Below, in pieces: positions 9,659-40,625 of a stretch of DNA of 64,000 nucleotides; within the stretch, counting starts at the first letter, position 1; each line of letters opens with the position of its first letter. The stretch covers positions 1-64,000 of the forward strand of contig NZ_ATJV01000047.1 in the NCBI RefSeq assembly GCF_000443165.1. The letters are read 5' to 3'. The notes below the pieces were generated by a model. That model had not been told where the DNA came from and ran no database searches. It was given only the letters and a program-made list of their open reading frames with translations. The stretch is from Thauera terpenica 58Eu (GTDB lineage Bacteria; Pseudomonadota; Gammaproteobacteria; Burkholderiales; Rhodocyclaceae). Both the position numbers and the translations under genes were made by a program.

Positions 9659-9660
9659 GG

Positions 9661-10863: not shown

Positions 10864-10865
10864 GT

Positions 10866-12344
10866 TTATTCTCCAGCCTTGCGCTGCGGACGCGCTTTCC
10901 AGAAGTAGCGGCGGAAGCCACGCGCGCGGTCGAACTCCTTGACGCGGAACACCATCTCCAGCGGGACACCGACCGCCAAGTCACTCGGCTCGCAGTCCAC
11001 GAACTCCATCAGTACCCGCGCCCTGCTGTCGAATTCAACGTGCCCGAACATGAACGGCGGGCAGGGTTTGTAGGACAACCAGTCGCTGGTGAAGCTGCGC
11101 ACCCGCGCCGGTTCATCGGCGAGCCGATGGGGCGTCTGGGAGTCCACCGCACCGCACTCCGGATTCACGCAGATGCGCCCGGCGGGAAACTGCACCGTGC
11201 CGCAGTTCCCACAGCGCCCGCCCTCGAAGCCGGCGACCATGTCAGTTGCGCGCCATGCGGCCGAGAGCGCGGTCTTGTTGTCCATCTCCGCACGCATTCC
11301 CCACTCCAATCCGATCTGGCCGGTAAAGGAGAGGTACTTGAGATAGTTGCTCTCGGCCTGCCCGCCGGCGAGCCAGTCTGCGTCCTGCGCCGCAGCGGCG
11401 ACCAGTTCGGTCGTCTCCAGCACCAGCGCATCGCAGCCGCTGCCGAACTGCACCAGCAGAATGCGCTGACCCGGCTGCGCTTGAGCCAGCACGTGCGCAA
11501 GCATCAGCAGGGGATGCGCCGCACCGGTATCCCCGCACTGCTCAAATAGGCTGTCGGCGACCGCCTCCGTGCGCACGCCGAGCTTCTTCGCCGTCGTGCC
11601 GGCCACCCGGCGCAGAAGCTCGGGCATGACAAAGTGGTCCACCTCGACCGCCTCGACGCCGGCCGTAGCAAGCGCCTGCTTCACCGCCTCGGGCACAATT
11701 TTCGCGAAGCCCTCGTCTCGCACCCAACGCTCTTCCCAGCCGTAGTCGCCGTCGCGCCCGGCCTCACGAAAGTGATCGACGAAGTCAGCCGTGACGCTCG
11801 CCATGCCGCGCAGCACCGCGAGCGGCGCGCCTTCTCCAACCAGCATCGCCGCCGCGCCGTCGCCGACGTTCAGTTCGGCGGTACTGGCCGGGGTGGGGAT
11901 GCGGCGATCAGCCGCGATCACCAGTTCGCACCCTGTGTTCGCCCTCAGTGCTGCCATCAGGGCGGAACTCCCGGCGCGCAGGCTGCCGCACTTGTCCGCT
12001 GCAGCGAGCCCGGAACCCAAACCAAGGGCCGCGCCGACGATCGCCGAATTGAGCCGATCGGCAAACGGCAGGGTGGTCGATGCGAGGGACAGCGAATCGA
12101 CGCGTGCGTCCCCCGCCCGGCGAATTGCCGCGCGGCCGGCTTCAACCGCCATGGTCACCGCATCCTCGTCCCAGTTCGCCATCGCACGCTCGCCCTTGGC
12201 GAGCGCCTTCAATCCCGGCGCCATCCAGCGATGGCCCGCTGCCACCGCCTGGCGGTCCAAGCGCAACCGTGGCACATAGACGCCCACTGCCAGGATGCCG
12301 CGTTGCCCGCCTGCTCTGCTGTCTTCGATCATCGATTCATCCAT
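10866..12344 (-). CDS. HMG-CoA-synthase-like / DUF35 OB-fold fusion protein
   Basis: 492-aa fusion. Residues ~15-350 resemble the 3-oxoacyl/HMG-CoA synthase thiolase fold, beginning with GILAVGVYVPRLRL and with the likely acyl-accepting Cys in ADKCGSLRAGSSA. Residues ~370-485 are a DUF35 zinc-rubredoxin/OB domain with CGNCGTVQFPAG and a second cysteine pair. In archaea and some catabolic bacteria these are separate proteins in a complex with a thiolase; here two parts are fused and the thiolase gene follows directly. It may condense or cleave a beta-branched acyl-CoA. The reaction is inferred, not shown. Confidence 0.83.
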   Translation of the reverse strand: MDESMIEDSRAGGQRGILAVGVYVPRLRLDRQAVAAGHRWMAPGLKALAKGERAMANWDEDAVTMAVEAGRAAIRRAGDARVDSLSLASTTLPFADRLNSAIVGAALGLGSGLAAADKCGSLRAGSSALMAALRANTGCELVIAADRRIPTPASTAELNVGDGAAAMLVGEGAPLAVLRGMASVTADFVDHFREAGRDGDYGWEERWVRDEGFAKIVPEAVKQALATAGVEAVEVDHFVMPELLRRVAGTTAKKLGVRTEAVADSLFEQCGDTGAAHPLLMLAHVLAQAQPGQRILLVQFGSGCDALVLETTELVAAAAQDADWLAGGQAESNYLKYLSFTGQIGLEWGMRAEMDNKTALSAAWRATDMVAGFEGGRCGNCGTVQFPAGRICVNPECGAVDSQTPHRLADEPARVRSFTSDWLSYKPCPPFMFGHVEFDSRARVLMEFVDCEPSDLAVGVPLEMVFRVKEFDRARGFRRYFWKARPQRKAGE

Positions 12345-12364: not shown

Positions 12365-13339
12365 CTACGGCAGACCACGGGTCACCGGTGACCCGGCGGA
12401 AAGATCAAACCCGGCAATGTGCCTCAGATAGTCAATGGGCCAACACATCTCGACATGCCCAACACCCGGCTGGCCGTCGATGGTGACCGCCATCGAGCCC
12501 TCGTTGAGCATGACCATTGGACTGACGACGAAGGGGTACAGCGCGAAAGTCCGCCCGAGCACCTCTGTGCTGCGACCGAGTTCGTCGCGCACCAGCGCAC
12601 GAACCGCGGTGTGGGCCAGGCGTTCGTCATGATCGAAGCTCACATCCACCGTTTCGACCTCTGCCAGATGCCCGTCACGCTGTACATAGCCGCGTAGCAC
12701 CGTGCGCCCGAGCGCCTCCACCTGCCAGAAATGCACCACCAGATCCTGCCCAGCCTGGGCCTCGAGCCATTTCCAATGCTGGGAGAAAAACCAGTCACGC
12801 GTACCCCAGGAGTGATCGCGGTGGCCCATGGTCTCAAACGGGATCTGCTTGCCGTCGAGCGTCAGCACACCGCTCACCTTTCCGCTCTGTTCGATGCGAT
12901 CTTCCGCCACCCAGCCGGGGCAGCCGTCGCGATGGCCGCCATAGGCATAGGCCGGGTGCACCGCTTCGAAGCGATAGTCGAGCTCTGCCCTCCCCCCGGC
13001 AACCACTCGCACATGGGCATCTTGGAACGGTCGCCCGTGGCGCACACGGACACGACCGACCCCCCAGTCGTCGAAGCCGGCCGATGCGGGCACATCGATC
13101 CCATCGCACATATCGACTACCGGTTCGCCGACACCCGGTCCATAGACTACAAAGGCCGAGCCAGCCTTACCCAGACCGTTGACCCAGGTGTACACGAAGC
13201 AAGCAAGGTTCTGTTCGGGCAGCTGCAGCATGAATACCAGAGATTCGCGCGCCAGCGCATCTGCGCGAAGCTGGTGGCGGCTGTCGTGCACCGGATCGAT
13301 CCGTCGTTCGGGCGATTCCAGTCTTGCGTGATCCTTCAT
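12365..13339 (-). CDS. AttH/CrtC-like (DUF7064/7065-type) protein with HRDHSWG motif
   Basis: 324-aa beta-rich protein without signal peptide or membrane segment. The GHRDHSWGTRDW segment near residues 170-181 is the hallmark of lipocalin-like AttH/hydroxyneurosporene-synthase relatives, a group often seen in lipid, steroid and terpenoid gene clusters. Biochemical role unknown. It heads the minus-strand operon of HMG-synthase-like, thiolase and CoA-transferase genes. The ATG follows a strong AAGGAGGAG site, and a palindromic operator lies 57 bp upstream. A second member of this type is encoded at 58.8 kb. Confidence 0.72.
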   Translation of the reverse strand: MKDHARLESPERRIDPVHDSRHQLRADALARESLVFMLQLPEQNLACFVYTWVNGLGKAGSAFVVYGPGVGEPVVDMCDGIDVPASAGFDDWGVGRVRVRHGRPFQDAHVRVVAGGRAELDYRFEAVHPAYAYGGHRDGCPGWVAEDRIEQSGKVSGVLTLDGKQIPFETMGHRDHSWGTRDWFFSQHWKWLEAQAGQDLVVHFWQVEALGRTVLRGYVQRDGHLAEVETVDVSFDHDERLAHTAVRALVRDELGRSTEVLGRTFALYPFVVSPMVMLNEGSMAVTIDGQPGVGHVEMCWPIDYLRHIAGFDLSAGSPVTRGLP

Positions 13340-13395: not shown

Positions 13396-13416
13396 TATAT
13401 CGTCCTGTACCATATC
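13396..13416. promoter_or_regulatory. Operator-like palindrome, copy 1
   Basis: Imperfect 21-bp copy of the CGTAYGGTAC-N-GTACCRTACG palindrome; the right half matches 8 of 10 positions and the left 6 of 10. Reading toward the gene at 13339, a perfect -35 box TTGACA (13422-13427) lies just upstream of the site and a TATAGT lies at its downstream edge, so a bound protein would cover the promoter. Confidence 0.6.
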
Positions 13417-13480
13417 TTTCGTGTCAACACCTATCTGCAATACGATCAAGATCACCCCTCAAACCAACTCAAGAGCGCTA

Positions 13481-14585
13481 TTAACCCGGCAATCAAATAG
13501 GCTTTGATATAATTCGGGCATGGAAAAGATCGATGCCCGAAAACTCCCGCCCGAAGCCCTGGAGCACATTCGTCGCCAAGCATTTGTACTGCGCAAGCAA
13601 GGCTACACATGGACGCACATCGCTGAAGTGTGTGGGGTTCATGTCGGTACCGTTCTGAAATGGGCGCGCCGCGCCCAGGCTGACGATCTCGACGCGGTCA
13701 TCAAGGGCGGGCAACGTGGTCGGCGCCATGGCTCGGGACGAACTTTGACGCTGGTCCAAGAGGAGCAACTGCGTTTGAAGATCATCGGTTCGAATCCTGC
13801 CCAGCTTCAGCTTGAGTTCGCGCTGTGGAATCGTCGCGCAGTCATGCTCGCCATCAAGCAACTCTTCGGCATCGACATGCCCATTCGTACCGTTGGTGAG
13901 TACCTTCGGCGCTGGGGCTTCACGCCACAGCGGCCGGTCAAGCGCGCGCTCGAGCAGGATCCGGCCCGGCTCAAGGCATGGCTTGAGGATGAGTACCCGA
14001 AGATCGTTGCGCGCGCCAAGACGGAGGATGCCGAAATCTACTGGGGGGACGAGACCGCCATTCGTCAGGACTCGAACTGGGTGCGCGGTTACTCGATCGC
14101 AGGGCTGACGCCGGAGCTGCGCCTGCCGGCCGGTCGTCATGGATCGACGTCGATGATCTCGGCGATTACCAACCAGGGCTTGGTGCGCTTCTCGTTCTTC
14201 GAGGGCGCCATTGATGCCGAGCGTTTCATCGTCTTCCTGAAAGATCTGATTCAGGACGCGCAACGCAAGGTGTTCCTGATCGTCGACAATCTTCGCGTGC
14301 ATCGTGCGAACCGTGTCCGCGACTGGGTTGCCGAAAACACCGAGAAGATCGAACTGTTCTACCTGCCGCCGTACGCGCCGGAACTCAACCCCGACGAGTA
14401 CCTCAACCGGGATCTGAAAACGTCGATACGTTCCGGGCCGATTGCCAAGACCGCCACCGCACTGCTCGAGAAGGCGCGAGTGTGCATGATGCGCATCGCT
14501 GCGATGCCGGATCGAGTGCGGTCGTATTTCAGCCATGAGTACGTTCGCTACGCTCAGTAATTTGGCTATTTGATTGCCGGGTTAA
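13481..14585 (+). mobile_element. IS630-family insertion sequence
   Basis: 1,105-bp element bounded by inverted repeats perfect over 21 bp (23 bp counting the flanking TA and one more base: 13478-13500 and 14566-14588). It is flanked by TA on both sides (13479-13480, 14586-14587), the TA target duplication typical of IS630/Tc1-mariner elements. It holds one intact transposase gene and looks complete. It lies between the operator of the operon at 13.3 kb and the MarR gene without breaking a recognisable gene. Confidence 0.9.
13520..14560 (+). CDS. IS630-family transposase
   Basis: 346-aa DDE transposase in a single frame. N-terminal helix-turn-helix region with YTWTHIAEVCGVHVGTVLKWARR near residues 30-55. 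The catalytic acids are in IYWGDETAIRQD, LIVDNLRVHRA and LPPYAPELNPDEYLN. It appears functional. Confidence 0.95.
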   Translation: MEKIDARKLPPEALEHIRRQAFVLRKQGYTWTHIAEVCGVHVGTVLKWARRAQADDLDAVIKGGQRGRRHGSGRTLTLVQEEQLRLKIIGSNPAQLQLEFALWNRRAVMLAIKQLFGIDMPIRTVGEYLRRWGFTPQRPVKRALEQDPARLKAWLEDEYPKIVARAKTEDAEIYWGDETAIRQDSNWVRGYSIAGLTPELRLPAGRHGSTSMISAITNQGLVRFSFFEGAIDAERFIVFLKDLIQDAQRKVFLIVDNLRVHRANRVRDWVAENTEKIELFYLPPYAPELNPDEYLNRDLKTSIRSGPIAKTATALLEKARVCMMRIAAMPDRVRSYFSHEYVRYAQ

Positions 14586-14633
14586 TAGTAGCAAGGTGAA
14601 ATCGATGGATGTACGCAGCATCCCTTACAGGGC

Positions 14634-14634
14634 C
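14634..14634. other. Intergenic stretch upstream of the MarR gene
   Basis: The ~175 bp between the IS630 end and the MarR start is non-coding. It holds a weak match to the window's palindromic operator at 14649-14669 (right half 8 of 10 positions, left half poor) and presumably the promoter of the marR-phosphatase unit. Confidence 0.3.
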
Positions 14635-14762
14635 TTTGCCAACAGAACAGTACTTACGCGTACAATATGTGCATTCATGCGCCTGTACGCAGATTCAGCA
14701 GGCAATCGTCCGCCCAGTTTCGGCGCGCCCGTCTGGCGCGCCACGACCACGAAGGAAATCGA

Positions 14763-15320
14763 ATGGCCACCACCCGTACGACGCGGAAAAGCAGGGGCGT
14801 GGAAGCCGAATCGTCCGCACCTGCAAGAAGTGCGTTGCCCGATCAGACAGCGCTGCGCCGCGACATCCGCTTGGGCTACCTGATCCACGACGTGTCGCGC
14901 ATGCGACGTACCGCGTTCGACCAGCTGATGAAGCCGCTGGGGATCACTCGCGCGCAATGGTGGGTGCTCGCACACCTGTCCCGCCACGACGGCATGGCGC
15001 AGACGCAGCTCGCCGCTATGCTCGATGTAGGCAAAGCCAGCCTTGGCTCCCTGCTCGACCGACTCGAAGCCACCGGCTTCATTGAGCGCCGCCCCGATGC
15101 GGTGGATCGCCGCGTCAAGCGTGTATTCCTGTCACGTAGTTCCCACCAGCTGCTTGAACGCCTAGTGACCATCGAAGCCGCATTCAACGAGCAGATTCTC
15201 GGCGGACTGAATGGCGAAGACCGCGACGCGCTGATCCGCATGCTTTCCACAATCAAGGAATCGCTACTCAAGCTGGAACTACCTGACACGACCGGACTCG
15301 ACACGGGCGAGATCGATTGA
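14763..15320 (+). CDS. MarR-family transcriptional regulator
   Basis: 185-aa winged-helix regulator. An N-terminal basic, disordered tail (~40 aa) precedes the MarR core. The recognition region runs through LAAMLDVGKASLGSLLDRLEATGFIERR (about residues 90-120), and the beta-wing has DAVDRRVKRVFLS. The ATG at 14763 has AAGGA 6 bp upstream. It is cotranscribed with the phosphatase gene (TTGA overlap). It is the only small one-component DNA-binding regulator seen among the catabolic genes, so it is a candidate reader of the palindromic operators, although those could equally belong to a TetR-type protein outside the window. Confidence 0.9.
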   Translation: MATTRTTRKSRGVEAESSAPARSALPDQTALRRDIRLGYLIHDVSRMRRTAFDQLMKPLGITRAQWWVLAHLSRHDGMAQTQLAAMLDVGKASLGSLLDRLEATGFIERRPDAVDRRVKRVFLSRSSHQLLERLVTIEAAFNEQILGGLNGEDRDALIRMLSTIKESLLKLELPDTTGLDTGEID

Positions 15321-16087
15321 AAACTGACACTTCCGCTAGCGGCCGCGCGATGCGGCAGCACCGTTTCCTGGGCGCGCCCAACTTTCGCGACCTAGGCGGG
15401 CTGCGTACGCAAGATGGGCGCAGCGTTCGGTGGGGTTGCCTGTTCCGCTCCGACTCACTGGCCGAACTGACGCCTGACGACCTTGAGCGCTTCTCCACAC
15501 TAGGCTTGCGTTCGGTCATCGACTTGCGCGATGACGACGAACGCGAAAGGAAGCCCAACCGCCTGCCCGATCGCGCCGCAATCTCGCAGCACGCCATCGG
15601 CTTCCTGCCGCGCGGAGCACACCACCTGCTGACCTCGCTGGGTCCAACATCCACCGCCGAGGCAGTGCATCACGCACTGACCGAGTATTACGGACAATTT
15701 GCGATTGCCCACGCGCAAAACTACGCGCGCATGTTCGAGATCCTGCTCCAGTCCGATACCTTGCCCGCTCTGGTTCATTGCACCAGCGGTAAGGACCGCA
15801 CCGGTTTCGGGATAGCACTGCTGCTGTCGGCGCTGGGTGTCGAGCGAGACGAAATCTTTGCAGACTATCTGCATTCGAATCGCGCACCGCGCGATCTCCG
15901 CTTCATGCTGCGCAAGGACGTCCCACACGAAACGGTCCGGGCTCTGATGGGTGTGCGTGCCGACTATCTCGAAGCCGCATTCGCCGCGATCGAAACACAC
16001 TGGTCATGTTTCGACCACTTCCTTGCCGAGGCGCTGGGGATAAACGAAGCCCGTCGCCAACAATTACGGGAACAGCTTCTCGACTAA
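15317..16087 (+). CDS. Tyrosine-protein phosphatase, IphP-like
   Basis: 256-aa protein-tyrosine/lipid phosphatase. The P-loop VHCTSGKDRTG near residue 154 supplies the Cys and Arg of CX5R; the N-terminal FRDLGGLRTQDGR segment is typical of the IphP family. It overlaps the marR stop through TTGA, using a TTG start at 15317; an ATG at 15350 is the alternative. No signal peptide, so cytoplasmic. Substrate unknown. Linkage to a MarR regulator inside a catabolic cluster is unusual. Confidence 0.85.
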   Translation: MKTDTSASGRAMRQHRFLGAPNFRDLGGLRTQDGRSVRWGCLFRSDSLAELTPDDLERFSTLGLRSVIDLRDDDERERKPNRLPDRAAISQHAIGFLPRGAHHLLTSLGPTSTAEAVHHALTEYYGQFAIAHAQNYARMFEILLQSDTLPALVHCTSGKDRTGFGIALLLSALGVERDEIFADYLHSNRAPRDLRFMLRKDVPHETVRALMGVRADYLEAAFAAIETHWSCFDHFLAEALGINEARRQQLREQLLD

Positions 16088-16136
16088 GGCATTTTCGCCG
16101 TATCCATTGCGTGGCAATCGTCGCATTGCATTGCAC

Positions 16137-16157
16137 CATATGGTCCTGTACCATACT
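16137..16157. promoter_or_regulatory. Operator-like palindrome, copy 2
   Basis: CATATGGTCC-T-GTACCATACT, 21 bp, ending 28 bp before the thiolase ATG. A TTGCAC at 16131-16136 directly abuts it and TACTTG starts 17 bp after that, so the site overlaps a likely sigma70 promoter. Confidence 0.65.
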
Positions 16158-16185
16158 TGCTGTTATTCGAACAGTGGGGATGGAC

Positions 16186-17370
16186 ATGTCATCACGTGAA
16201 GTGCTCGTAGTTGGCGCCGCTCGCACCGCGATCGGCGGCTTTGGCGGATCACTCAAGGACGTACCGATGCGCGAACTAGCCACCACGGTCACCAGGGCGG
16301 CACTGGAGCGCGCAGGTGCGCCGGCCGAGGAAGTCGGTCATGTGGTGTTCGGCAACGTGATCCCTACCGAACCGGCCGACGCCTACCTGAGCCGCTTTGC
16401 CGCACTGGAAGCCGGGTTACCAAAGGAAGTTCCCGCCTTCAACGTCAATCGCCTGTGCGGCTCGGGCCTGCAGGCCATTGTCTGCGCGGCACAGACCATT
16501 AGCGCCGGCGACGCGGATGTCGCGGTCGGTGGCGGTGCGGAATCGATGAGCCGCGGCCCCTACATCATCCCGGCACATCGTTGGGGCGCACGGATGGGCG
16601 ACTCCCAGGTCATCGACTATATGAATGGCATCCTGCATGACCCGTGGGACCGCGTGCACATGGGGATCACCGCCGAGAACGTCGCCGAGCGCTACGGCAT
16701 CAGCCGGCAGTTGCAGGACGAGCTGGCGCTGGTGAGTCAGCATCGCGCCGCGCGCGCCATCGAGGAAGGTCGTTTCGCCAGTCAGATCGTACCGATCGAG
16801 ATCCACAGCCGGAAAGGCGTGGTGAGATTCGCGCAGGACGAGCATGTGCGCGTAGGTGTCACCGCAGAACAACTCGCGGGCATGAAACCGGCCTTCAAAA
16901 AGGACGGCACGGTGACCGCTGGTAACGCTTCGGGAATCAACGATGGGGCTGCGGCGGTTGTGCTTGCCGAGGCCGCAGCGGCCAAGCGCCTGGGCATGAC
17001 ACCATTGGCCCGCTTGGTGAGTTACGCGCACGCTGGCGTCGACCGGATGTACATGGGCATCGGTCCGGTACCTGCTTCCCGGCTCGCGCTCGCACGGGCG
17101 GGGCTTACCGTAGCGGACATGGACGTCATTGAATCCAATGAGGCTTTCGCTGCACAAGCCTGCGCGGTGGCGAGCGAACTCGGCTTCGATCCCGAAAAGG
17201 TCAACCCAAATGGCTCAGGCATCTCGCTCGGTCACCCCGTGGGCGCCACTGGCGCCATTATCACCACCAAGGCGATCTACGAGTTGCAGCGTATCGGCGG
17301 GCGCTATGCGTTGGTGACGATGTGTATCGGCGGCGGCCAGGGCATCGCCGCGATCTTCGAGCGGGTGTAG
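16186..17370 (+). CDS. Acetyl-CoA acetyltransferase / 3-ketoacyl-CoA thiolase
   Basis: 394-aa classical thiolase. Nucleophilic Cys in NRLCGSGLQAIVCAAQ near residue 91, His in GHPVGATGA near residue 350, and acid/base Cys in CIGGGQG near the C-terminus. Length fits FadA/PhaA/AtoB. The ATG at 16186 has GGGGATG upstream; an ATG two codons earlier is possible. A longer reading from 16006 overlaps the phosphatase gene and is not supported. It has its own operator/promoter. Confidence 0.94.
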   Translation: MSSREVLVVGAARTAIGGFGGSLKDVPMRELATTVTRAALERAGAPAEEVGHVVFGNVIPTEPADAYLSRFAALEAGLPKEVPAFNVNRLCGSGLQAIVCAAQTISAGDADVAVGGGAESMSRGPYIIPAHRWGARMGDSQVIDYMNGILHDPWDRVHMGITAENVAERYGISRQLQDELALVSQHRAARAIEEGRFASQIVPIEIHSRKGVVRFAQDEHVRVGVTAEQLAGMKPAFKKDGTVTAGNASGINDGAAAVVLAEAAAAKRLGMTPLARLVSYAHAGVDRMYMGIGPVPASRLALARAGLTVADMDVIESNEAFAAQACAVASELGFDPEKVNPNGSGISLGHPVGATGAIITTKAIYELQRIGGRYALVTMCIGGGQGIAAIFERV

Positions 17371-17375
17371 TTTCC

Positions 17376-17393
17376 GCGCGCCGGACGGCGCGC
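17376..17393. repeat. GC hairpin between thiolase and cache genes
   Basis: Inverted repeat GCGCGCC-ggac-GGCGCGC just after the thiolase stop. No U-tract follows, so at most a partial terminator or mRNA-stabilising hairpin. Confidence 0.4.
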
Positions 17394-17416
17394 CCATTCG
17401 ACTGCAGGAGGCTCAT

Positions 17417-18295
17417 ATGAAACGTCAGGATCTGCTCGCCGCACTTCTACTCGCCATGGCCCTGCCGGGTCCGGTCTCGCCAGCCTACGCAGAAACGGCA
17501 CCGGCAGCGGCTCCACTGCCCGGCGACACGGACGAGAGTCGCCGCGCGGAGGCCCTGCTTGGGCGCGCCGTCACACACCTGCGGTCGCACGGCGGCAAGG
17601 CACTGGCCGATTTCTCCGTAAGCGGCCACTTCGTCGATGGCGACCTGTATGTCTACGTGCTCGACACCCAGGGCGTCTTGCAGGCTAGCGGTGGCGCCTC
17701 CTTCCACATGATCGGGCGCAATGTCCTAGAGTACCGCGACCCGGACGGCAAATCTTTGTTCGCCGAGATTCTCGCCGGTGCTCGCAAGGACGGGCGCGGC
17801 CTGATTCACTACCGCTGGCTTAATCCCCAACGCGGCACGGTCGAACGAAAGGCGGCCTACTATCAGGCGGTCAATGACTACATCGCCGCCGTCGGCTACT
17901 ACGCACCGCGCGCCACACCCGAACAGGCGCTGTCGGTCCTGTGGCGCGCGGTAGACGAACTCCAGCGCAGAGGGACAGCAGCGTTCGACGCCTTCAACGA
18001 CTTGAACGGTGGTTTCGTACGCGACGATACCTATGTGTTCGTAGTTGGCATCAAGGACCAGCGCATGCACGCACACGGCGCAAACCCGCGCCTAGTGGGC
18101 CGCAAAGTTGCCGAACTGAAGGATGCCGCAGGCAAGCCGATTATCGAGGAGATGCTGCGGATCGTGGTCCAGGCAGATGAGGGAAGTCTGGAATACCAGT
18201 GGCGCAATCCAGCCACCGGCGCGATCGAGAACAAGCGCACCTTCCTACGCCGTATCGGCGACTACATGGTGGGCGTGGGCTACTACCAACCCTGA
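17417..18295 (+). CDS. Exported tandem cache-domain protein
   Basis: 292 aa. A signal peptide (KRQDLLAALLLAMA, cleavage near AYA-ET at residue 26) is followed by two homologous cache sensor repeats, about residues 45-155 and 170-290. Each ends with a YxVGYY-type motif (YIAAVGYY, YMVGVGYY) and contains the GRNVLEYRDPDGK / GRKVAELKDAAGK loop. No transmembrane anchor or signalling domain follows, so it is a free periplasmic ligand-binding protein rather than a receptor. Strong AGGAGG site. It may bind an organic acid of the pathway; the partner is unknown. Confidence 0.8.
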   Translation: MKRQDLLAALLLAMALPGPVSPAYAETAPAAAPLPGDTDESRRAEALLGRAVTHLRSHGGKALADFSVSGHFVDGDLYVYVLDTQGVLQASGGASFHMIGRNVLEYRDPDGKSLFAEILAGARKDGRGLIHYRWLNPQRGTVERKAAYYQAVNDYIAAVGYYAPRATPEQALSVLWRAVDELQRRGTAAFDAFNDLNGGFVRDDTYVFVVGIKDQRMHAHGANPRLVGRKVAELKDAAGKPIIEEMLRIVVQADEGSLEYQWRNPATGAIENKRTFLRRIGDYMVGVGYYQP

Positions 18296-18332
18296 GCGGC
18301 GCGCCGGAACACCCGGCGACCGCAATCCGGAT

Positions 18333-18369
18333 ACGGGCTGAACGGGCGGCAACCGCCCCTTCAGCCCGT
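18333..18369. terminator. Bidirectional hairpin between convergent genes
   Basis: Long stem: ACGGGCTGAA and GGGCGG pair with CCGCCC and TTCAGCCCGT around a CAA loop, with one C/C mismatch. It lies exactly between the convergent cache gene and the small helical protein gene. No T-run follows, so it may work as a strong hairpin for both strands. Confidence 0.65.
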
Positions 18370-18379
18370 GTCGCTGACG

Positions 18380-18916
18380 TCAGCGGCCGACCAGCGTGTC
18401 GATGTCGGGCACGGCAGCCGGGTCTGGCTCCCAACGCTGCGGCTTCATCAGCGCCCGGTCGCGCAGCAACTGCTCCTTCGACATCGCCAGCAGGATGGAT
18501 TCGATGCACTCGCGCGCGCCGATGTCCGCACTCGTCGCGGACGCATCAACCAAGGCGCAGAGCGCGCCGCGCAGTTGCAGGATGGCCGCGTAGAGTTCAT
18601 CCGGCCCGGCCTTGCAGCGCTCGAGGACTTCGGTGGCACGCGCGCACGGCACAGCCACCTGCTCCAGCCCCGCAGCAGTGACCCGATCTTCTGTCCCCAC
18701 CGCCTTGAGTTGCTGCGCTGCCTCGACCAGGCGCTGCAGCTCGTCGCGGTCGAATCGAAACTGCACCGGCAACTGGGTCTGCATCAGGTTCAACATGCCG
18801 ACCACCAGGTTCGCCTGTTCGACCGCCAGCATGTTGCCTTGCGGCAGCGCCGGGATGATTACGTCGGACATTGCCTTGATCATCGCAGCAAGCTGTACTT
18901 CCGGACGCATCTGCAT
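18380..18916 (-). CDS. Small helical protein of unknown function (paralogue of the gene at 63.5 kb)
   Basis: 178 aa, predicted mostly alpha-helical, with no signal peptide or recognised motif. The ATG at 18916 lies just after the stop of the kinase gene with GGAGGGG upstream, so the two are coupled. The central segment QANLVVGMLNLMQTQLPVQF followed by RFDRDELQRLV aligns with QARLIIGTLRLIAKRLPLAY followed by RYDCDELRRYV in the partial gene at the right window edge. Recurrence in two catabolic clusters suggests an accessory role. Function unknown. Confidence 0.7.
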   Translation of the reverse strand: MQMRPEVQLAAMIKAMSDVIIPALPQGNMLAVEQANLVVGMLNLMQTQLPVQFRFDRDELQRLVEAAQQLKAVGTEDRVTAAGLEQVAVPCARATEVLERCKAGPDELYAAILQLRGALCALVDASATSADIGARECIESILLAMSKEQLLRDRALMKPQRWEPDPAAVPDIDTLVGR

Positions 18917-18917
18917 G

Positions 18918-20117
18918 TCAGTGCCCCTCCTCGATGAGCGTTCGCATTTCATCGACGATCATGCCGCCGATGCCGATCAGCCAGGCAACCAAGATGTCCT
19001 GGTGGGTCTTGCCGTTGCGCGCGATGCGATAGCCGGTGCCGAGGATCAGCGTGGCGATCGAATAGGCGTTGTAGACCTTGTACCAGTGCAGGGTGCGAGG
19101 GTTTACGCTGAAACCCGACGCCTTCTCGTACTGCTCATAGAACTCCTGCTCCGGCAAAAGGCCGCACACCAGCATCGTTGTACCGTCCTCGGCCAGCGAG
19201 GCGAAGGCGCGGCTGGTCGTCCACGCGATATCCTGATGGCGGTCGCCGATACGCCCCAGTTCCCAGTCGAGCAGCGCAGTGATCCGGTTGTCGTGCTCGG
19301 TATAGAGGAAATTGCCGGTGCGGTAGTCGGAATGCACCAGCGAGGCGTGATCCAGTACCGGCAGGTTCCGGCGCATCCAGGCCGTGGCCAGATGCATCAT
19401 CGGCACGTCCTCCTCACAGTCCTCGGTCCATACCCGCTCCCACCAGTTCACGCCCCACTCGGCGCACTGCGTGGTGCCCACCGCCGGGGTCTCGAAGGCG
19501 TCGAGCGCATCGCGCGAGAAATCGTGGCGGTGAATGCGCGCGAGCAGGTCTACGAACTGGGGGGCCAAGTGCTCACGCAGCTCACGCGGAAGGACGGTGC
19601 CAAGCCCGCTGACCCCTGCGACCGCCTGGCTGGGCCGAGGCACCCCCGGCGCGAAACCGTAGATCAGCGCCGGATAGGGCAGGTATCGTCCTTCCGGATC
19701 ACACCAGAACACCGGCGGCACCGGCACCACGCCCTCCATCGCCTTGATCAGCTGGAACTCGCGCAGCCGACTGGTCTCGACGATCGATTCCGCCGGCTCC
19801 ATGCGCAGCACCATCGCAGTCCGCTCGTAGCCGACGCCCGGACGCTGCCATTCCAGTTCGAAGGCCATCTGCAGCTTCGACGCACCGCCGGACAGCCAGC
19901 GGGCGTTGTCGATCCGATAGTCGGCAACGTTCTCGGCGCGCAGCAGCGCATCCACCCCGTCAACCAGCTGTTCGAGGGTTACCGGGGCAAAGGGTGAACC
20001 GCCGCGCCGGGCGAGCTTGCGACTCAGAATGCGGTCGATCTCCCGTTCGCAGGGGAAGCGCGCCCGGAGGTTTTCGATCCACGCGCCATCCGGACGGTTC
20101 TTGTCCAAACCGATCAT
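18918..20117 (-). CDS. Phosphotransferase family protein (APH/ACAD10-like kinase fold)
   Basis: 399-aa protein of the aminoglycoside-phosphotransferase fold. The Brenner-like catalytic loop LVHSDYRTGNFLY gives the catalytic Asp and Asn, and ITALLDWELGRIGD the Mg-binding Asp. Members of this branch accompany acyl-CoA dehydrogenases in branched- and cyclic-acid degradation, where they are thought to phosphorylate hydroxyacyl substrates. I place the start at 20117 (MIGLDKN), with GGAGA 8 bp upstream, rather than at earlier Met codons that lack a ribosome site. Operator copy 3 lies 75 bp upstream. Confidence 0.85.
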   Translation of the reverse strand: MIGLDKNRPDGAWIENLRARFPCEREIDRILSRKLARRGGSPFAPVTLEQLVDGVDALLRAENVADYRIDNARWLSGGASKLQMAFELEWQRPGVGYERTAMVLRMEPAESIVETSRLREFQLIKAMEGVVPVPPVFWCDPEGRYLPYPALIYGFAPGVPRPSQAVAGVSGLGTVLPRELREHLAPQFVDLLARIHRHDFSRDALDAFETPAVGTTQCAEWGVNWWERVWTEDCEEDVPMMHLATAWMRRNLPVLDHASLVHSDYRTGNFLYTEHDNRITALLDWELGRIGDRHQDIAWTTSRAFASLAEDGTTMLVCGLLPEQEFYEQYEKASGFSVNPRTLHWYKVYNAYSIATLILGTGYRIARNGKTHQDILVAWLIGIGGMIVDEMRTLIEEGH

Positions 20118-20191
20118 GATCCATGTCTCCATTTGTGGTGTGGGTATGCAGGGGGCAACGACCGCAATCGGTCGGCCAGAATATTCCCGTG

Positions 20192-20212
20192 CGTATCGTA
20201 CTGTACCATACC
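20192..20212. promoter_or_regulatory. Operator-like palindrome, copy 3
   Basis: CGTATCGTAC-T-GTACCATACC, 21 bp, in the 150-bp divergent region between the kinase gene (minus) and the transglutaminase-like gene (plus). It could control both directions. Confidence 0.65.
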
Positions 20213-20267
20213 GTTCGTGGTATAGATGAAATAATCCCGCAAGCCGACGAAGCATTCCACCGCCGCC

Positions 20268-21022
20268 ATGATCTGTCACCTACCGGGCGCCGACGCCCCG
20301 CTCGCGGCCGACCTGGCCGCCACGACTCTGATCGACTCCACCCACCCCGTGATCGCAGCCTTTGCCAAGGACATCGCTGGCGATGCGGCAACAGCGCAGG
20401 AACGCGCTGCGCGCCTGTATCTCGCGGTGCGGGATCGCGTGCGCTACGACCCGTACCAAGTGCGGCTCACGACCGAAGGAATGTGTGCAAGCCGCACGCT
20501 TGAGCGGGGCTACGGTTGGTGCGTACCCAAGGCGGCGCTGCTCGCGGCGGTTTGCCGCCCCTGCGGCATTCCGGCGCGCGTGGGCTACGCCGATGTGCGC
20601 AACCACCTGTCCACCCGGCGCATGCGTGCCCTTCTCGACAGCGATGTCTATTACTGGCACAGCTACACGGCGATCCACCTCCACGACCGCTGGGTCACGA
20701 TCTCGCCCTGTGCAGACGTGGGGGCCTGGCGCCGCTCGAGTTCGACGGTAGCTCCGATTCGATCCTTCATCGCTTCGACACCACCGGTCGCCAACACATG
20801 GAGTACATCGCCTACCGCGGCGAATACGACGACGTGCCGCTGCAGGAGATCCGCCGGACGTTTGCCGAACGCTACCCGAACATGATGCAACTCTTGGCCG
20901 CCGACTTCCCCGAGGATTGCGACGCCCCCCCGAATCGCCGCGCACGCTGTGAGCATGAGCACTCAGCTCAGCTACCCTCCATGCCACCCGACCGGCAAAG
21001 GAACATCGCGCGCCCTTCGTAG
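20268..21022 (+). pseudogene. Transglutaminase-like protein, frameshifted
   Basis: The first ~150 codons encode a transglutaminase-like (papain-fold) domain: Cys in GYGWCVPKAALLAAVCR, His in the YADVRNH and YWHSYTAIH segments and an Asp in LHDRWVTISP. After about 20720 the homologous reading continues in another frame (GGLAPLEFDGSSDSILHRFD, then MEYIAYRGEYDDVPLQEI), while the original frame turns into low-complexity Ser/Thr/Arg sequence and stops at 20885. A short deletion or indel near the GGGGG run at about 20728-20732 is likely. The shifted frame ends at 21022, overlapping the convergent MaoC gene. Confidence 0.7.
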
Positions 21023-21447
21023 GACACGACCGTGTCGCCATGCTGATTCACTGCCTCCTGCAGTAGCGTGATCACCCCGCGGTCCGGCTTGCTCACCGAG
21101 CGGCGTGCGGCAAGGATCGTCGCCCGGGCGCGCAAGCGGTCGCCAGGACGCACCGGTAGCCGCCAGCGCAGCGCATCGATCCCGGGCGAGCCCATCGCCG
21201 AGACCTGCGGGATGAAGTGATCGCAATACAGGCGCATCACAATGGAGCAGGTCATCCATCCGCTGGCGACCAGGCCGCCAAAGTGCGACTGACGGCCCGC
21301 CTCCGCATCTAGGTGGAAGGGCTGAGGATCGTATGCGCGTGCAAAGGCGACGATCTCCTCCTCGGTCACTTGGTAATCGCCGAACTCGGCTACTTCGCCG
21401 ACCGCATAGTCTTCGAAGTAGCGCTCCTTGTAAGGCACGAATTTCAT
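20968..21447 (-). CDS. MaoC-family (R)-specific enoyl-CoA hydratase
   Basis: 159-aa hot-dog-fold hydratase. The motif AYDPQPFHLDAEAG near residues 38-51 supplies the Asp and His of the hydratase-2 active site, followed by FGGLVASGWMT. It probably hydrates a trans-2-enoyl-CoA. The ATG at 21447 follows GGAG; an earlier Met 18 codons upstream is not supported. It is the last gene of a minus-strand run with the SDR and old yellow enzyme. Confidence 0.88.
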   Translation of the reverse strand: MKFVPYKERYFEDYAVGEVAEFGDYQVTEEEIVAFARAYDPQPFHLDAEAGRQSHFGGLVASGWMTCSIVMRLYCDHFIPQVSAMGSPGIDALRWRLPVRPGDRLRARATILAARRSVSKPDRGVITLLQEAVNQHGDTVVSYEGRAMFLCRSGGMEGS

Positions 21448-21497
21448 GGGTGCCGCGCTCCAGCAGGTTGTGAGGGGAAAGGGATTCGACAGTACTT

Positions 21498-22367
21498 TCA
21501 ATCCGTCTCTCTGAGCATCTCAGGTGCCGTCGCGCGGTGAAAACCCTCGAACGGCCGGTTTCGTGACGCCTCTCCGAGCGGCCAGGTCTGCCGCGCATTC
21601 GGTGTGCCGCCATCGACCCGGACGCACGTGCCGGTTATGTAGGCAGCCGCGGGTGAAAGTAGGAACACGATCGCCGCCGACACTTCCGCCTCGGTACCGA
21701 AACGCTTGAGCGGTACCTTGGCGGCGTACCTGCGCAACTCCCGCCGAGCCTCCGGCGTATAGCGGTCGAACCCGCTTGAGGCGATGCCGCCCGGCGCCAC
21801 GGTATTCACGCGCACGCCATCGGCCGCCCATTCGCAGGCCGCCGTCTCGCTGAGCGTAAGCATGCCGCCGCGCGCTGCAGCGGAATGACCGAAGTTCGGC
21901 CAGCCGTGCCAGATGTCGGCAATGATGTTGACGATCGCGCCACCATGGGCCGCCAACCAGCGCGCGTGCGTCTCGCGCATGAAGATGAAGCCGCCGGTGA
22001 GGTTGTTGCGCACTACCGCCTCGAAGCCGTTCGTGCTGATGTTGCGCAGCGGTGTCATCCATTGCCCGCCTGCGTTGTTGACCAACCCATCGATCCGCCC
22101 GGTGAGCGCCAGCACCGCGTCGATCGTCTGCCCCACGGCGACCTCGTCGCGGATGTCGCAGACATGCATGCTGACCCGCCCGCCGTCCTCGACGATCTCA
22201 TCGCGCACCTTTGCAAGCTTCTCTTCGCTGCGGCCGACGATTGCTGCATGCGCCCCCAATGCAGCCAGTTCGTGAGCCGTGCAGCGGCCGATACCACTGC
22301 CGCCGCCGGTAACTATCACGGTCTGCCCGGAAAAGAGTTGGGAATGGAATACCGAACCGTAGGACAT
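21498..22367 (-). CDS. SDR-family reductase, trans-2-enoyl-CoA-reductase-like
   Basis: 289-aa short-chain dehydrogenase. NADP-binding TGGGSGIG near residue 20 and NNAGG near 98. The usual Tyr-x3-Lys is absent: the equivalent stretch reads HSAAARGGM, as in peroxisomal trans-2-enoyl-CoA reductases, which lack the Tyr. A carbon-carbon double-bond reductase is therefore more likely than an alcohol dehydrogenase. The ATG at 22367 follows GAGG. It lies directly downstream of the old yellow enzyme gene. Confidence 0.82.
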   Translation of the reverse strand: MSYGSVFHSQLFSGQTVIVTGGGSGIGRCTAHELAALGAHAAIVGRSEEKLAKVRDEIVEDGGRVSMHVCDIRDEVAVGQTIDAVLALTGRIDGLVNNAGGQWMTPLRNISTNGFEAVVRNNLTGGFIFMRETHARWLAAHGGAIVNIIADIWHGWPNFGHSAAARGGMLTLSETAACEWAADGVRVNTVAPGGIASSGFDRYTPEARRELRRYAAKVPLKRFGTEAEVSAAIVFLLSPAAAYITGTCVRVDGGTPNARQTWPLGEASRNRPFEGFHRATAPEMLRETD

Positions 22368-22411
22368 GGTGTGATCCTCGCTACATGTGAGAAGGCGCGC
22401 AGGAAACCCGA

Positions 22412-23524
22412 TCAGAACAGGTTGTCGAGCGCATCGACTACTGCCCGCCCACCGCACCAGCGGTCCGGGCTGGCCAAAGCGAACTGGCGCGCGAAGAGAT
22501 CGTCGGCACCCAGCGCGTAAGCGGCCTTCATCGCCCAGCGCGGATCGAGCAACATCGCCCGCGCTATGGCCACGCAATCGGCATCTCCGCGCGCGACTGC
22601 CTGTTCGGCCATGCGCGGCTGATGCAGCATGCCCACCGCCCGCGTGACCAAACCGGTCGCCGCGCGCGTTCGCCTTGCAAACTCGAGCAGATAGCCGGGC
22701 GCCGCGGGAATGCGCACGCCCTTTGCAACCGCGCCGGCGGACACACATACAAAGTCCACACCTACGTCGCGCAGCGCTACGCAAACTTTGAGTGTCTCAG
22801 CAAAGCTCATGCCTCCTGAATCCCAGTCGTGGGCGTTGATCCGGACCCCCAGCGCCCGATCAGCCGGCCATGCGGCACGCACCGCAGCGACGGCGGCCAA
22901 TGGGAAGCGCATCCGGTTGTTCAGTGTGCCCCCGAAATGGTCGCTGCGCCGATTTGCGAGTGGAGACAGGAAACTTCCAAGTAGGTAGCCGTGGGCGAGG
23001 TGCAGTTCCAGGTAATCCAATCCAACTGCTAGCGCCCGTCGCGCGCTGTCGGCGAAGGCCACCTCAACCGTGGTCATACCCGCCTCGTCCATCTGTTCCG
23101 GCACCGCCCGGCCTGCTCCGAAGGGAATGGCTGATGGTGCCTTGATGGGCCAACCGCCTTCCCGAAGTCCGTCCCCGCCATCCCATGGCGGCAGACAGGC
23201 GCCCTTTCGTCCGGCGTGATTCAACTGGATACCGAGGCGAATCGGCGACAGGCGCCGAATATAGCCGATCAGTTCCGCGAGCTCGGCCTGCTGCTCATCG
23301 GAATACAGGCCCAAGCACCCGGTCGTGACCCGGCCTTCCGGCAGCACCGCGGTCGCCTCAATCGTCAAGGCGCCCGCACCGCCGACCGCCAGCGCCCCGT
23401 AGTGCTGGAGATGCCAGTCACCCGGGCACCCTTCGCTCGCGCTGTACTGGCACATCGGCGATACGAAGACCCGGTTCGTAATACTCATCGGGCCGATCTT
23501 AAGGGGCGTGAATAGGGCTGACAT
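22412..23524 (-). CDS. Old yellow enzyme family NADH:flavin oxidoreductase
   Basis: 370-aa FMN barrel enzyme of the YqjM/NamA-XenA class. SPMCQYSASEG near the N-terminus, HYGALAVGGAGALTIEATAV, IQLNHAGRKGA and LELHLAHGYLLGSFLSPLAN are the family landmarks. Such enzymes reduce activated C=C bonds; 2,4-dienoyl-CoA or cyclic enone reduction would fit the neighbours. Start at 23524 with GAGG upstream. It diverges from the SDR at 23.6 kb across operator copy 4. Confidence 0.92.
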   Translation of the reverse strand: MSALFTPLKIGPMSITNRVFVSPMCQYSASEGCPGDWHLQHYGALAVGGAGALTIEATAVLPEGRVTTGCLGLYSDEQQAELAELIGYIRRLSPIRLGIQLNHAGRKGACLPPWDGGDGLREGGWPIKAPSAIPFGAGRAVPEQMDEAGMTTVEVAFADSARRALAVGLDYLELHLAHGYLLGSFLSPLANRRSDHFGGTLNNRMRFPLAAVAAVRAAWPADRALGVRINAHDWDSGGMSFAETLKVCVALRDVGVDFVCVSAGAVAKGVRIPAAPGYLLEFARRTRAATGLVTRAVGMLHQPRMAEQAVARGDADCVAIARAMLLDPRWAMKAAYALGADDLFARQFALASPDRWCGGRAVVDALDNLF

Positions 23525-23558
23525 GGATACCTCGACGACAAAACTCTTGCTTTGATTT

Positions 23559-23579
23559 CGTACGGTACTGTACCATACG
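23559..23579. promoter_or_regulatory. Operator-like palindrome, copy 4 (best copy)
   Basis: CGTACGGTAC-T-GTACCATACG, a 21-bp palindrome with a single asymmetric pair. It lies in the 121-bp divergent region, 35 bp from the old yellow enzyme start and 66 bp from the SDR start. It defines the consensus for the other copies. Confidence 0.75.
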
Positions 23580-23645: not shown

Positions 23646-24563
23646 ATGAGCAAGGATCTGCTGGCAGGAAAGGTGGCCCTGGTAACCGGCGCCGGGCGCG
23701 GTGTCGGGCGTGGCATTGCGCTCGAACTGGCGGCTGCGGGTGCCAAAGTAGTGGTCAACGACATTGGCGCGACGACCAGCGGCGAAGGTCAGGACCTCAG
23801 CCCCGCACAGGAAGTCGTGGCCGAAATCGCCGCCGCCGGCGGCGAAGCGGTGGTCGACACCAACTCGGTGGCCGATTGGGACGAGGCCCACGCGATGGTA
23901 CAAACTGCCATCGACAGCTTCGGCCGCATCGACATCGTGGTGAACAACGCCGGCATCCTGCGCGATACCATCTTCCACAAGATGAGCCGCGAAGAATTCG
24001 AGGCGGTCATCAATGTGAATCTCAATGGTGTGTTCTACGTAAGCCGCGCCGCCGCGCCGCACTTCAAGGAACAGAGCGGCGGCTCCTATATTCACATCAC
24101 ATCCAGCTCCGGGCTGATCGGCAATTTCGGACAGGCCAACTACGCGGCCGCCAAGCTGGGTGTGGCTGCGTTGTCCAAGAGCATCGCGATGGACATGCAG
24201 CGCTTCAACGTACGTTCCAATGCGGTGGCTCCATGGGCATGGACCCGCATGGTCGACACCATCCCCGCTGAAACCGAAGAGCAAAAGAAGCGCGTCGAGG
24301 GACTGAAGAAGCTGGTTCCGGAAAAGATTGCCCCCTTCGTCGCCGCACTGGCGAGTGACGCCGCGAGCGGCGTCACCGGGCAGATCTTCGGCGTGCGCAA
24401 TAATGAGATCTACCTGTTTAGCCAGTCACGCCCGGTCCGGACTGCGCATACCTCGGACGGTTGGACACCGGCGAGCGTGATCGAACGCGTGTTCCCGATG
24501 TTCCAGAATGATTTCTACCCGTTGCACCGCTCGGGCGACGTGTTTACCTGGGAGCCCGTCTGA
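23646..24563 (+). CDS. SDR-family (3R)-hydroxyacyl-CoA dehydrogenase-like protein
   Basis: 305-aa SDR resembling the dehydrogenase unit of peroxisomal multifunctional enzyme 2. TGAGRGVGRG near residue 12, then NNAG, with the catalytic SSSG and YAAAK in ANYAAAKLGV. The C-terminal ~45 residues (QSRPVRTAHTSDGW) extend past the minimal SDR fold, as in MFE-2-type enzymes. GGAGG precedes the ATG at 23646. Probable step: oxidation of a 3-hydroxyacyl-CoA. Monocistronic, followed by a strong terminator. Confidence 0.88.
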   Translation: MSKDLLAGKVALVTGAGRGVGRGIALELAAAGAKVVVNDIGATTSGEGQDLSPAQEVVAEIAAAGGEAVVDTNSVADWDEAHAMVQTAIDSFGRIDIVVNNAGILRDTIFHKMSREEFEAVINVNLNGVFYVSRAAAPHFKEQSGGSYIHITSSSGLIGNFGQANYAAAKLGVAALSKSIAMDMQRFNVRSNAVAPWAWTRMVDTIPAETEEQKKRVEGLKKLVPEKIAPFVAALASDAASGVTGQIFGVRNNEIYLFSQSRPVRTAHTSDGWTPASVIERVFPMFQNDFYPLHRSGDVFTWEPV

Positions 24564-28268: not shown

Positions 28269-29291
28269 TCACAACCGTCTCAGCCATCCGACGAGGTCGA
28301 CGTCAATGCGCGCGCCGGTCTCGGCGGGCGGAGCCAAGGCTTCCGGAAACACCTGGGCAAGCGCCTGGCGTTTCGAGTCCAAGTCGGCACGTGCGTACTT
28401 CATCGTCGTGTTCAGGGTGGAATGCCCAAGCCATTGGCTGATCGTCGCGAAGTCAACTCCGGCCTTGAGCAAGTAAATCGCCGTGGTATGTCTCAGCGAG
28501 TGGGGGTGTATCCGCTTCTCCTTCAAGGTGCTCGCCGTGGTTGTACTGGCCGCGACGTACTTGTTGAGCAGATACCGGACACCGAAGCGTGTGAGCTTGC
28601 CGCCGCGTTGGTTCGTGAATAGCGTTACGTCGGTCGTCGCGCCCCTCGATGTCTGCTGCGCCAGCGTTTGCAATCGAGCTGCGGTCGAAGCCCAGATGGG
28701 GCAGATCCGTACCTTGCCGCCTTTGCCGCGCAGTCGGACTTGGTATGGTGGCTCGGTCCGAACGTCGCTCAGCTTGAGATCGAGCACCTCCTGGACTCGG
28801 GCCCCGGTATTGAGCATCAGCGCGAACAGCGCGTAGTCGCGGCGCCCCGTCTCGGTAGTACGGTCAATTTGCCCAAGGATCGCTTCGGCCTCGGCCGACT
28901 CCAGATACTCGATCGGTGCGTTCCTTGCGCCGCGCTTGAACGGCAACCCCAGCACGCGTTGCAGCTCGGCAAGATGGGTGGGCGATTCAGTCGCGAGGAA
29001 GCGGGCAAATGTGTGCAGCGCGGCCAGCCGGACATTGCGCGTAGCAATGCTGTTGTGGCGCTCGATCTCGAGGAACATCAGGAACTGCCCCACGTGCTCA
29101 GCGGTAAAGGCGTCGAGATCGAGATCCTCAAGACGGCGGTCGCAGTGTGCGGATACGAATCGCAGGAACAGAACCAAGGCGTCGCGATAGCTGCGAAGGG
29201 TGTGCACACTCATACCGCGAAGCGTTGGCAGATAGTCGCGGAAGAACTTCTCGACGCACAGGCCGAGCTCGTTGGGGCGGATGCGCTTCAT
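28269..29291 (-). CDS. RIT tyrosine recombinase, third gene
   Basis: 340-aa phage-integrase-family recombinase. SAM-like N-terminal core-binding domain, then the catalytic domain: Arg in NTGARVQEVLDLKL, His/Arg in HSLRHTTAIYLL, His in QWLGHSTLNTT and Tyr in MKYARADL. The start at 29291 overlaps the preceding gene by ATGA; the much longer open frame to 29621 is antisense-type overlap and is rejected. Complete catalytic set. Confidence 0.93.
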   Translation of the reverse strand: MKRIRPNELGLCVEKFFRDYLPTLRGMSVHTLRSYRDALVLFLRFVSAHCDRRLEDLDLDAFTAEHVGQFLMFLEIERHNSIATRNVRLAALHTFARFLATESPTHLAELQRVLGLPFKRGARNAPIEYLESAEAEAILGQIDRTTETGRRDYALFALMLNTGARVQEVLDLKLSDVRTEPPYQVRLRGKGGKVRICPIWASTAARLQTLAQQTSRGATTDVTLFTNQRGGKLTRFGVRYLLNKYVAASTTTASTLKEKRIHPHSLRHTTAIYLLKAGVDFATISQWLGHSTLNTTMKYARADLDSKRQALAQVFPEALAPPAETGARIDVDLVGWLRRL

Positions 29292-40522: not shown

Positions 40523-40552
40523 TGCGTGCTCCATGCATCGATTTCGATGTCT

Positions 40553-40566: not shown

Positions 40567-40625
40567 GATTTAACACGCATCAAGACCGTATTGTTTAATA
40601 CTTTCTAGGCTCCCTCGCAGCTGCC

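Follow-up and report, generated by a model that had tools for sequence, protein, structure and literature searches.

A 21-base-pair (bp) palindrome that recurs upstream of catabolic genes in a 64,000-nucleotide stretch of Thauera terpenica 58Eu DNA (contig NZ_ATJV01000047.1, here C47; the whole stretch is referred to as the window) is quite probably the operator of a dimeric MarR-type repressor encoded at position 14763 of the same stretch, which would control a regulon for anaerobic monoterpene degradation and would be released by a CoA thioester. That the shared operator marks a catabolic regulon is supported by the orthologous promoters of five other genomes and by further predicted sites at genes of the same pathway, whereas we infer that this particular MarR protein binds the sites, that it represses instead of activating, and what its ligand is. 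The original prediction had assigned the palindromes to CoA-ester catabolism in general. A shared operator at pathway genes was indeed found, but the pathway appears to be monoterpene degradation and the regulon wider than first noted.

All four predicted palindromes were present, at positions 13396 to 13416, 16137 to 16157, 20192 to 20212 and 23559 to 23579, and they matched their own reverse complements at 14, 14, 16 and 18 of 21 positions, respectively, where 20 is the maximum for a 21-bp site. With up to three mismatches, the consensus proposed originally recovered three of the four (16137, 20192 and 23559), that at 20192 also in a shifted, overlapping position, compared with 0.00 in shuffled sequences; the site at 13396 was more distant from this consensus than the other three. 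Scanning of the 4.15-Mb genome with a degenerate 19-base consensus, RTAYSGTMCNGKACSRTAY, yielded four exact matches, all of which were the window operators, while the control pattern (RTAYSGTMCNGKACSRTAY read backwards) had none. Hence, in the genome-wide scan that had been called for, the strict consensus is confined to the four window sites, and the palindromes are far above chance. When the stringency was relaxed, RTAYSGTMCNGKACSRTAY matched 8 places (one a shifted overlap) versus 4 control places at up to two mismatches and 64 versus 85 at up to three mismatches across the genome, and therefore lone weak matches carry no weight.

Operator 1 (13396 to 13416, minus strand) lies 57 bp before the start, at 13339, of a DUF7064 gene (12365 to 13339, minus strand), which heads a same-strand run of HMGS-like (our short name for a ketoacyl-synthase-III/ChsH2-type gene), thiolase and acetyl-CoA hydrolase-type genes (8387 to 12344). 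Operator 2 (16137 to 16157, plus strand) precedes the gene of a BktB-type beta-ketothiolase (16186 to 17370, plus strand; NCBIfam PRK09051, 686 bits with a cut-off of 565). As predicted, the remaining two operators are placed between divergent genes: operator 3 (20192 to 20212) between those of an APH-type phosphotransferase (18918 to 20124, minus strand, start approximate) and a transglutaminase-like protein (20268 to 20885, plus strand; Pfam PF01841), and operator 4 (23559 to 23579) between those of an OYE-type NADH:flavin oxidoreductase (flavin mononucleotide oxidoreductase; 22412 to 23524, minus strand; Pfam PF00724) and a short-chain dehydrogenase (SDR; 23646 to 24563, plus strand; Pfam short-chain dehydrogenase), whose 3-hydroxyacyl-CoA-dehydrogenase-like function is suggested by its likely Castellaniella defragrans ortholog, CDM25246. 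The distances between operators and gene starts, about 28 to 72 bp, agree with the 28 to 75 bp given before. The assertion that genes contain no copy needs correction, as intragenic matrix matches exist, though weak, at 22348 (score 15.2), 18011 (14.1) and 51189 (13.8).

De novo palindrome discovery on whole ortholog loci returned only conserved coding repeats, and for this reason we adopted orthologous promoters and a matrix built solely from the four window operators (the window-only matrix). Orthologs of the window MarR protein were found in Denitromonas ohlonensis (74% identity), Azoarcus sp. Aa7 (73%), Azoarcus KH32C (75%, on a plasmid), genome G299 (77%), C. defragrans DSM 12141 (70%), Aromatoleum toluclasticum (70%) and more distant genomes. 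Within 262 kb of 13 marR-ortholog loci, the window-only matrix produced 17 matches (16 distinct places) with a score of at least 16, as opposed to a single one in 398 kb of control DNA, 20 stretches drawn from other parts of seven of these genomes. That single match precedes the Denitromonas geoA gene: by accident, the control stretches included part of the Denitromonas terpene contig (L110), which is kept in the counts and whose two best matches to the refined matrix described below precede geoA and an APH paralog.

With the window-only matrix, upstream regions of orthologous target genes in the other genomes scored at least 13 in 20 of 27 cases (bktB, 5/5; DUF7064, 3/4; OYE, 4/5; SDR, 4/7; APH, 3/5; transglutaminase, 1/1), when genes with at least 55% identity over at least 60% of the length were kept and divergent genes sharing a site were counted separately. 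Among non-target genes, this score was reached by 11 of 152, namely six mrcB genes, two maoC genes, one HMGS-like gene heading its set in KH32C, one marR gene and one coordinate artefact, a gene at a locus edge; mrcB and maoC therefore look like further targets. Site by site, operator 1 has orthologous counterparts in G299, Denitromonas and Azoarcus Aa7 and a weak one in Castellaniella, operator 2 has one in all five other loci, and the intergenic regions corresponding to operators 3 and 4 score 19.4 and 27.8, respectively, in Denitromonas. Upstream of mrcB, an orthologous site occupies the same place in all seven other loci with an MrcB ortholog, six of which score at least 13 with the window-only matrix (Castellaniella, 12.6).

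The window itself carries a site in front of mrcB that had been overlooked (40552 to 40572, minus strand). It is situated 29 bp before the likely start, at 40522, of this acyl-CoA dehydrogenase gene (39347 to 40522, minus strand; assigned by Pfam), the head of the mrc ring-cleavage set, and thus falls within the longest open reading frame, yet upstream of the likely true start; the sequence TTGATG occurs at 40578 to 40583. The site scores 14.7 with the window-only matrix and 13.7 with a refined matrix, the latter within the range of chance matches. Because 13.7 is below the score of the intragenic match at 22348, it is the position that speaks for this weaker operator. The refined matrix was built from 19 sites, with weaker ones omitted, so its scores are circular for these training sites, though not for contigs C63 and C86 of this genome or for loci L110 and L141; the 21-bp palindrome then reads approximately RTAYSGTMC-W-GKACSRTAY. 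Two sites on other contigs of this genome, neither of them used in building the matrix, scored high: C63:28043 before a DUF1302 gene (19.9) and C86:5437 before geoA (19.8). A site scoring 25.0 lies between the PPDK and DUF1302 orthologs of G299, that is, in the same intergenic region as C63:28043, and one scoring 20.2 precedes geoA of Denitromonas.

Three more matches were seen at or near pathway genes. On the Denitromonas contig, a second gene for an APH-type phosphotransferase has a site scoring 18.1 (L110:10924-10944) approximately 57 bp upstream. A weak match (15.5; L062:10171-10191, C47:74171) lies immediately upstream of an acyl-CoA dehydrogenase gene, itself located before geoB; the orthologs of this dehydrogenase gene in other loci have no such match. 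A weak site scoring 11.1 (C63:8645-8665, L116) takes the position orthologous to that of the maoC site at L085:36198 in Azoarcus KH32C.

The pathway was recognized by comparison with C. defragrans. Both the gene content of the window and the numbering of the T. terpenica proteins (EPZ16226 to EPZ16291) match the monoterpene island described for this organism in PMC4109377 (cited from excerpts, as are the other papers below). The APH, bktB, DUF7064 and OYE proteins of the window are 82, 79, 72 and 68% identical to their Castellaniella DSM 12141 orthologs, and these four values equal those published for C. defragrans 65Phen versus T. terpenica 58Eu; the MarR protein deviates, with 70% identity over its length to the DSM 12141 ortholog compared with the 77% listed (PMC4109377). 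In strain 65Phen, which differs from the scanned strain DSM 12141, the orthologs of APH, bktB, hydroxyacyl-CoA dehydrogenase, mrcB, maoC and geoA were seen only or more on alpha-phellandrene, while the DUF7064 and OYE products were undetected (PMC4109377). The gene pairings behind this comparison rest partly on gene order. The APH gene, for instance, was paired with CDM25241 by gene order and 82% identity, and the C. defragrans table names that entry an acyl-CoA dehydrogenase protein.

We consider the product of the marR gene (14763 to 15320, plus strand, 185 amino acids) the best candidate regulator of the predicted operators. It contains a MarR winged-helix domain (PF12802, MarR_2, 59.6 bits with a cut-off of 27; PF01047, 51.2 bits with a cut-off of 24.6), and its AlphaFold model, with a mean predicted local distance difference test score (pLDDT) of 78.3 and a predicted template modelling score (pTM) of 0.58, gave the SlyA-DNA complex 3q5f and MarR 3bpx as top Foldseek matches (E value of about 4e-9). 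Residues G90-K91-A92, L94-G95, R100, R117, K119 and R120, which we place in the recognition helix and the wing, do not vary among 14 aligned MarR sequences. As a rule, the operator of a MarR dimer is palindromic and close to the regulator's own gene. In several genomes, palindromes lie around marR or in its vicinity, and strong sites are found 146 to 204 bp before marR in G192 and G344 (MarR 57 to 58% identical) and in G116 (56%), where the gene neighbourhoods differ. None of the 18 TetR_N matches of this genome is located on C47; one is on C63, at a distance of about 3.4 kb from the site on that contig. The earlier suggestion of this MarR as the binder is thus favoured by linkage in the ortholog loci, by the site-marR pairs of G192, G344 and G116 and by the absence of a TetR gene from the contig.

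The weak copy reported in front of marR (14649 to 14669, plus strand) fared less well: it is barely palindromic (6/21) and scores 12.5, compared with 26 to 29 for the real sites. In its favour, an element similar to it, CGTATTTAGTCGTACAATATG (14.2), precedes marR in three relatives, Azoarcus KH32C, Aa7 and G299. Since the site overlaps a TACAAT −10-like box, the conservation of the element may be mere promoter conservation. The level of the C. defragrans MarR protein was unchanged on alpha-phellandrene (PMC4109377), in keeping with an autoregulation that is weak at most; such a weak autoregulation through the 14649 site is possible.

Several observations weigh against a MarR-controlled monoterpene regulon. 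The ortholog loci were found by a MarR search, so the co-occurrence of sites and MarR is partly built in, and the autoregulatory site before marR is marginal. Seven of the 27 orthologous target regions score below 13. No site of at least 12.5 was present in 20.5 kb of Aromatoleum (L052), the MarR protein of which is 70% identical, and G068 had none in 4.3 kb (best, 10.7). The Denitromonas DUF1302 ortholog is without a site, as is geoA in Castellaniella (−0.1) and G094 (6.9), though GeoA is induced in C. defragrans; geoA and DUF1302 sites being present in some species only, the content of the regulon varies between species. At up to one mismatch, the strict pattern matched 5 of 13 other marR-bearing genomes and 7 of 28 other genomes of the same genus (for 20 of these 28, absence of a MarR ortholog was shown), and was accordingly set aside as an uninformative marker across genomes; five of the seven share one unrelated sequence, ATACCGTACGGGGCGGTAT. 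Strong lone sites also occur at L142:1500 (G262, 21.2) and L143:1500 (G344, 22.8), with no named terpene gene within these 3-kb loci. As to expression in C. defragrans, alpha-phellandrene brought no change in the ortholog of dienoyl-CoA reductase, which lies downstream of OYE, and numerous island genes lacking their own site were induced as well (PMC4109377), so the expression data are consistent with the proposed regulon, not specific for it.

The most serious alternative, which we regard as unlikely, is that the palindromes are true operators of another protein, such as the C63 TetR, a second MarR encoded near geoB (C47:76927) or an unlinked regulator. The 9-bp half-sites are long and would fit TetR dimers too. 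The C63 TetR gene lies near pathway genes, and its 66% identical ortholog in Denitromonas lies near PPDK and geoA, which also counts against the window MarR; however, the best match before the C63 gene reached only 7.5 and that before its Denitromonas ortholog only 8.6, and no ortholog was detected (E value of 1e-15) in the other loci examined, which are parts of genomes, or on the KH32C plasmid, which carries MarR and several sites (of KH32C, only the plasmid was covered). Likewise unfavourable is genome G091, which is without a close MarR ortholog and has a related palindrome beside an unrelated TetR gene: the full palindrome TGTACGGTACTGTACCGTACC (L060:8784-8804) is flanked by the genes of an FAA hydrolase and an AefR-like TetR. 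A TetR of this type, however, had no match in this genome (E value of 1e-10); of 12 other marR-bearing genomes, only two gave a match, at 33% and 25%. The second MarR gene (L062:12927-13454, C47:76927-77454), beside geoB in the same island, occurs not only on C47 but also in the stretches from Castellaniella and G299, and Denitromonas has a 55% relative elsewhere on its contig. Yet it was not found (E value of 1e-8) in the Aa7 stretches or in the site-bearing Denitromonas and KH32C stretches, a 30% match in KH32C being another MarR. A further gene nearby, L062:1555-2058, had no Pfam match at an E value of 0.001; its position suggests the pairing with EPZ16280, a MarR regulator in Table 1 of PMC4109377.

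The layout of the promoters bears on how the MarR protein encoded at 14763 would act. In 18 of 42 promoter orientations, hand-picked from the site list with marR sites excluded, a TTG begins exactly 11 bases upstream of the operator, compared with 1 of 42 in the opposite orientation. This spacing is found in all eight mrcB, all six bktB and four of five DUF7064 promoters; in the remaining promoters, the TTG is at −10, −12 or −13, or there is none nearby. If a spacing of 17 bases is assumed, the −10 hexamer (often TACCAT, TACGAT or GACGAT) coincides with the right half-site. Operator 1 thus follows a −35 box TTGACA (13422 to 13427) and includes a presumed −10 box GACGAT (13399 to 13404), and operator 2 follows TTGCAT (16126 to 16131) and includes TACCAT (16149 to 16154). 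The claim that at least two operators overlap −35-like boxes was therefore not borne out in the clearest promoters, those of the three families, where the operator follows the −35-like TTG and covers the presumed −10 box. Such a position over spacer and presumed −10 suits repression by occlusion. A generic promoter scan, with 1 promoter versus 2.1 expected, gave no support by itself.

It is improbable, in our view, that the MarR protein binds the sites and acts mainly as an activator or anti-silencer. Certain MarR/SlyA-type proteins do activate, and the geoA, maoC and APH sites have no TTG exactly 11 bases upstream; in the mrcB, bktB and DUF7064 promoters, however, a protein bound over the spacer and presumed −10 would block the polymerase. 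That the palindromes are chance matches or a non-regulatory repeat is scarcely credible, for although the control pattern outnumbers the motif at three mismatches and amounts to half of it at two, shuffled sequences gave 0.00 and the sites are conserved in orthologous promoters of other genera.

For the repressor that we favour, the MarR protein encoded at 14763, the following course of events can be proposed. Without substrate, the MarR dimer would occupy the spacer and −10 region, 11 bases behind the −35 box, and block RNA polymerase. As monoterpene is consumed, a CoA-thioester intermediate, at a guess perillyl-CoA or a ring-cleavage product, would bind the dimer, and the ligand-bound dimer would leave the DNA. 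The genes for beta-oxidation, mrc ring cleavage, geoA and putative uptake would then be induced together.

The nearest described system is BadR of the bad-ali regulon in Aromatoleum sp. CIB and Rhodopseudomonas palustris. BadR is a MarR-type repressor whose target is a related pathway for the ring cleavage of alicyclic acids; its operator overlaps the promoter, and a CoA ester of the pathway relieves the repression (PMC9795900). MrcD, MrcE and MrcF, moreover, resemble BadH, BadI and BadK (PMC4109377). The BadR operator, however, is CAAN4TTG and overlaps −35 boxes (PMC9795900), whereas here a 21-bp GTATGGTAC-type palindrome extends over spacer and −10. CAAN4TTG was found within 150 bp of none of the five window operators (14 copies in the whole window), and CAATNNATTG gave none. 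Judged by its operator, the window regulon is not the BadR regulon; it also differs in serving a monoterpene pathway and in being spread over several operons and contigs. In Pseudomonas, the TetR-type regulator AtuR represses the acyclic terpene utilisation cluster via inverted repeats. It thus differs from the regulator proposed here in family and in pathway, and atu genes are reported to be absent from C. defragrans (PMC4109377). CouR of Rhodococcus jostii is a MarR repressor of a CoA-thioester pathway that p-coumaroyl-CoA releases from an inverted-repeat operator (PMC4737184). In CouR, the conserved arginines Arg36 and Arg38 bind the phosphates of CoA. A solved chain named CouR (6c28) was among the sequence matches of the window MarR (47 bits); the substrate class differs, and the likeness would be one of mechanism. 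For CDM25292, the MarR of the C. defragrans island, the listed identity to EPZ16235 is 77%; gene order makes it most likely that EPZ16235 is the MarR encoded at 14763. For the MarR genes of that island, the excerpts of PMC4109377 give annotation only, with no operator or regulon.

In the open-access literature searched, the regulation of anaerobic monoterpene degradation is apparently undescribed, and the passages of PMC6394551 found contain nothing on regulation. The operator and regulon are, apparently, likewise undescribed so far in that literature, with a presumed mode of working like that of BadR and CouR. The operator defines a concrete regulon and predicts geoA, the DUF1302 gene, mrcB and maoC as unlinked members; it could be used for finding more terpene genes and possibly as a terpene-CoA biosensor. 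We are somewhat inclined to a broader proposal, namely that one MarR clade sensing a monoterpene-derived CoA ester constitutes a dedicated switch in Rhodocyclaceae and Castellaniella, and that one operator, travelling with mobile islands and a plasmid, would control uptake, alcohol oxidation by geoA, mrc ring cleavage and beta-oxidation and would also mark other pathways, such as that of a glycyl-radical enzyme in G116.

The latter gene encodes an 828-amino-acid protein and is divergent from the 56% identical MarR ortholog (L058:9629-13002), and the two genes are separated by a strong operator-like site (10357). The protein has the Pfam PFL-like and Gly_radical domains but reached the cut-off of none of the 12 NCBIfam models listed; among solved structures, glycerol and diol dehydratases are its best relatives, and benzylsuccinate synthases match more weakly. 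A limonenylsuccinate synthase of the benzylsuccinate synthase kind is described in PMC12583861, and the G116 enzyme does not look like it.

Of the other window features, an insertion element (13479 to 14587, plus strand), bounded on either side by terminal inverted repeats, contains an open reading frame (13520 to 14560) for what we take to be an IS630-type transposase. It lies between operator 1 and marR, which share one intergenic region in Denitromonas, Aa7 and G299 and are split here. Overlapping the end of marR is a tyrosine-phosphatase-like gene (15317 to 16087, plus strand), which itself had only a weak NCBIfam match; its Azoarcus KH32C ortholog is annotated as a tyrosine-protein phosphatase. 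The APH-type phosphotransferase had weak NCBIfam APH matches, below the cut-off, and a 45% match to a protein of Denitromonas that carries Pfam APH. Finally, three phage-integrase-type tyrosine recombinases are encoded in tandem on the minus strand at 28269 to 31503, a possible sign of island mobility.

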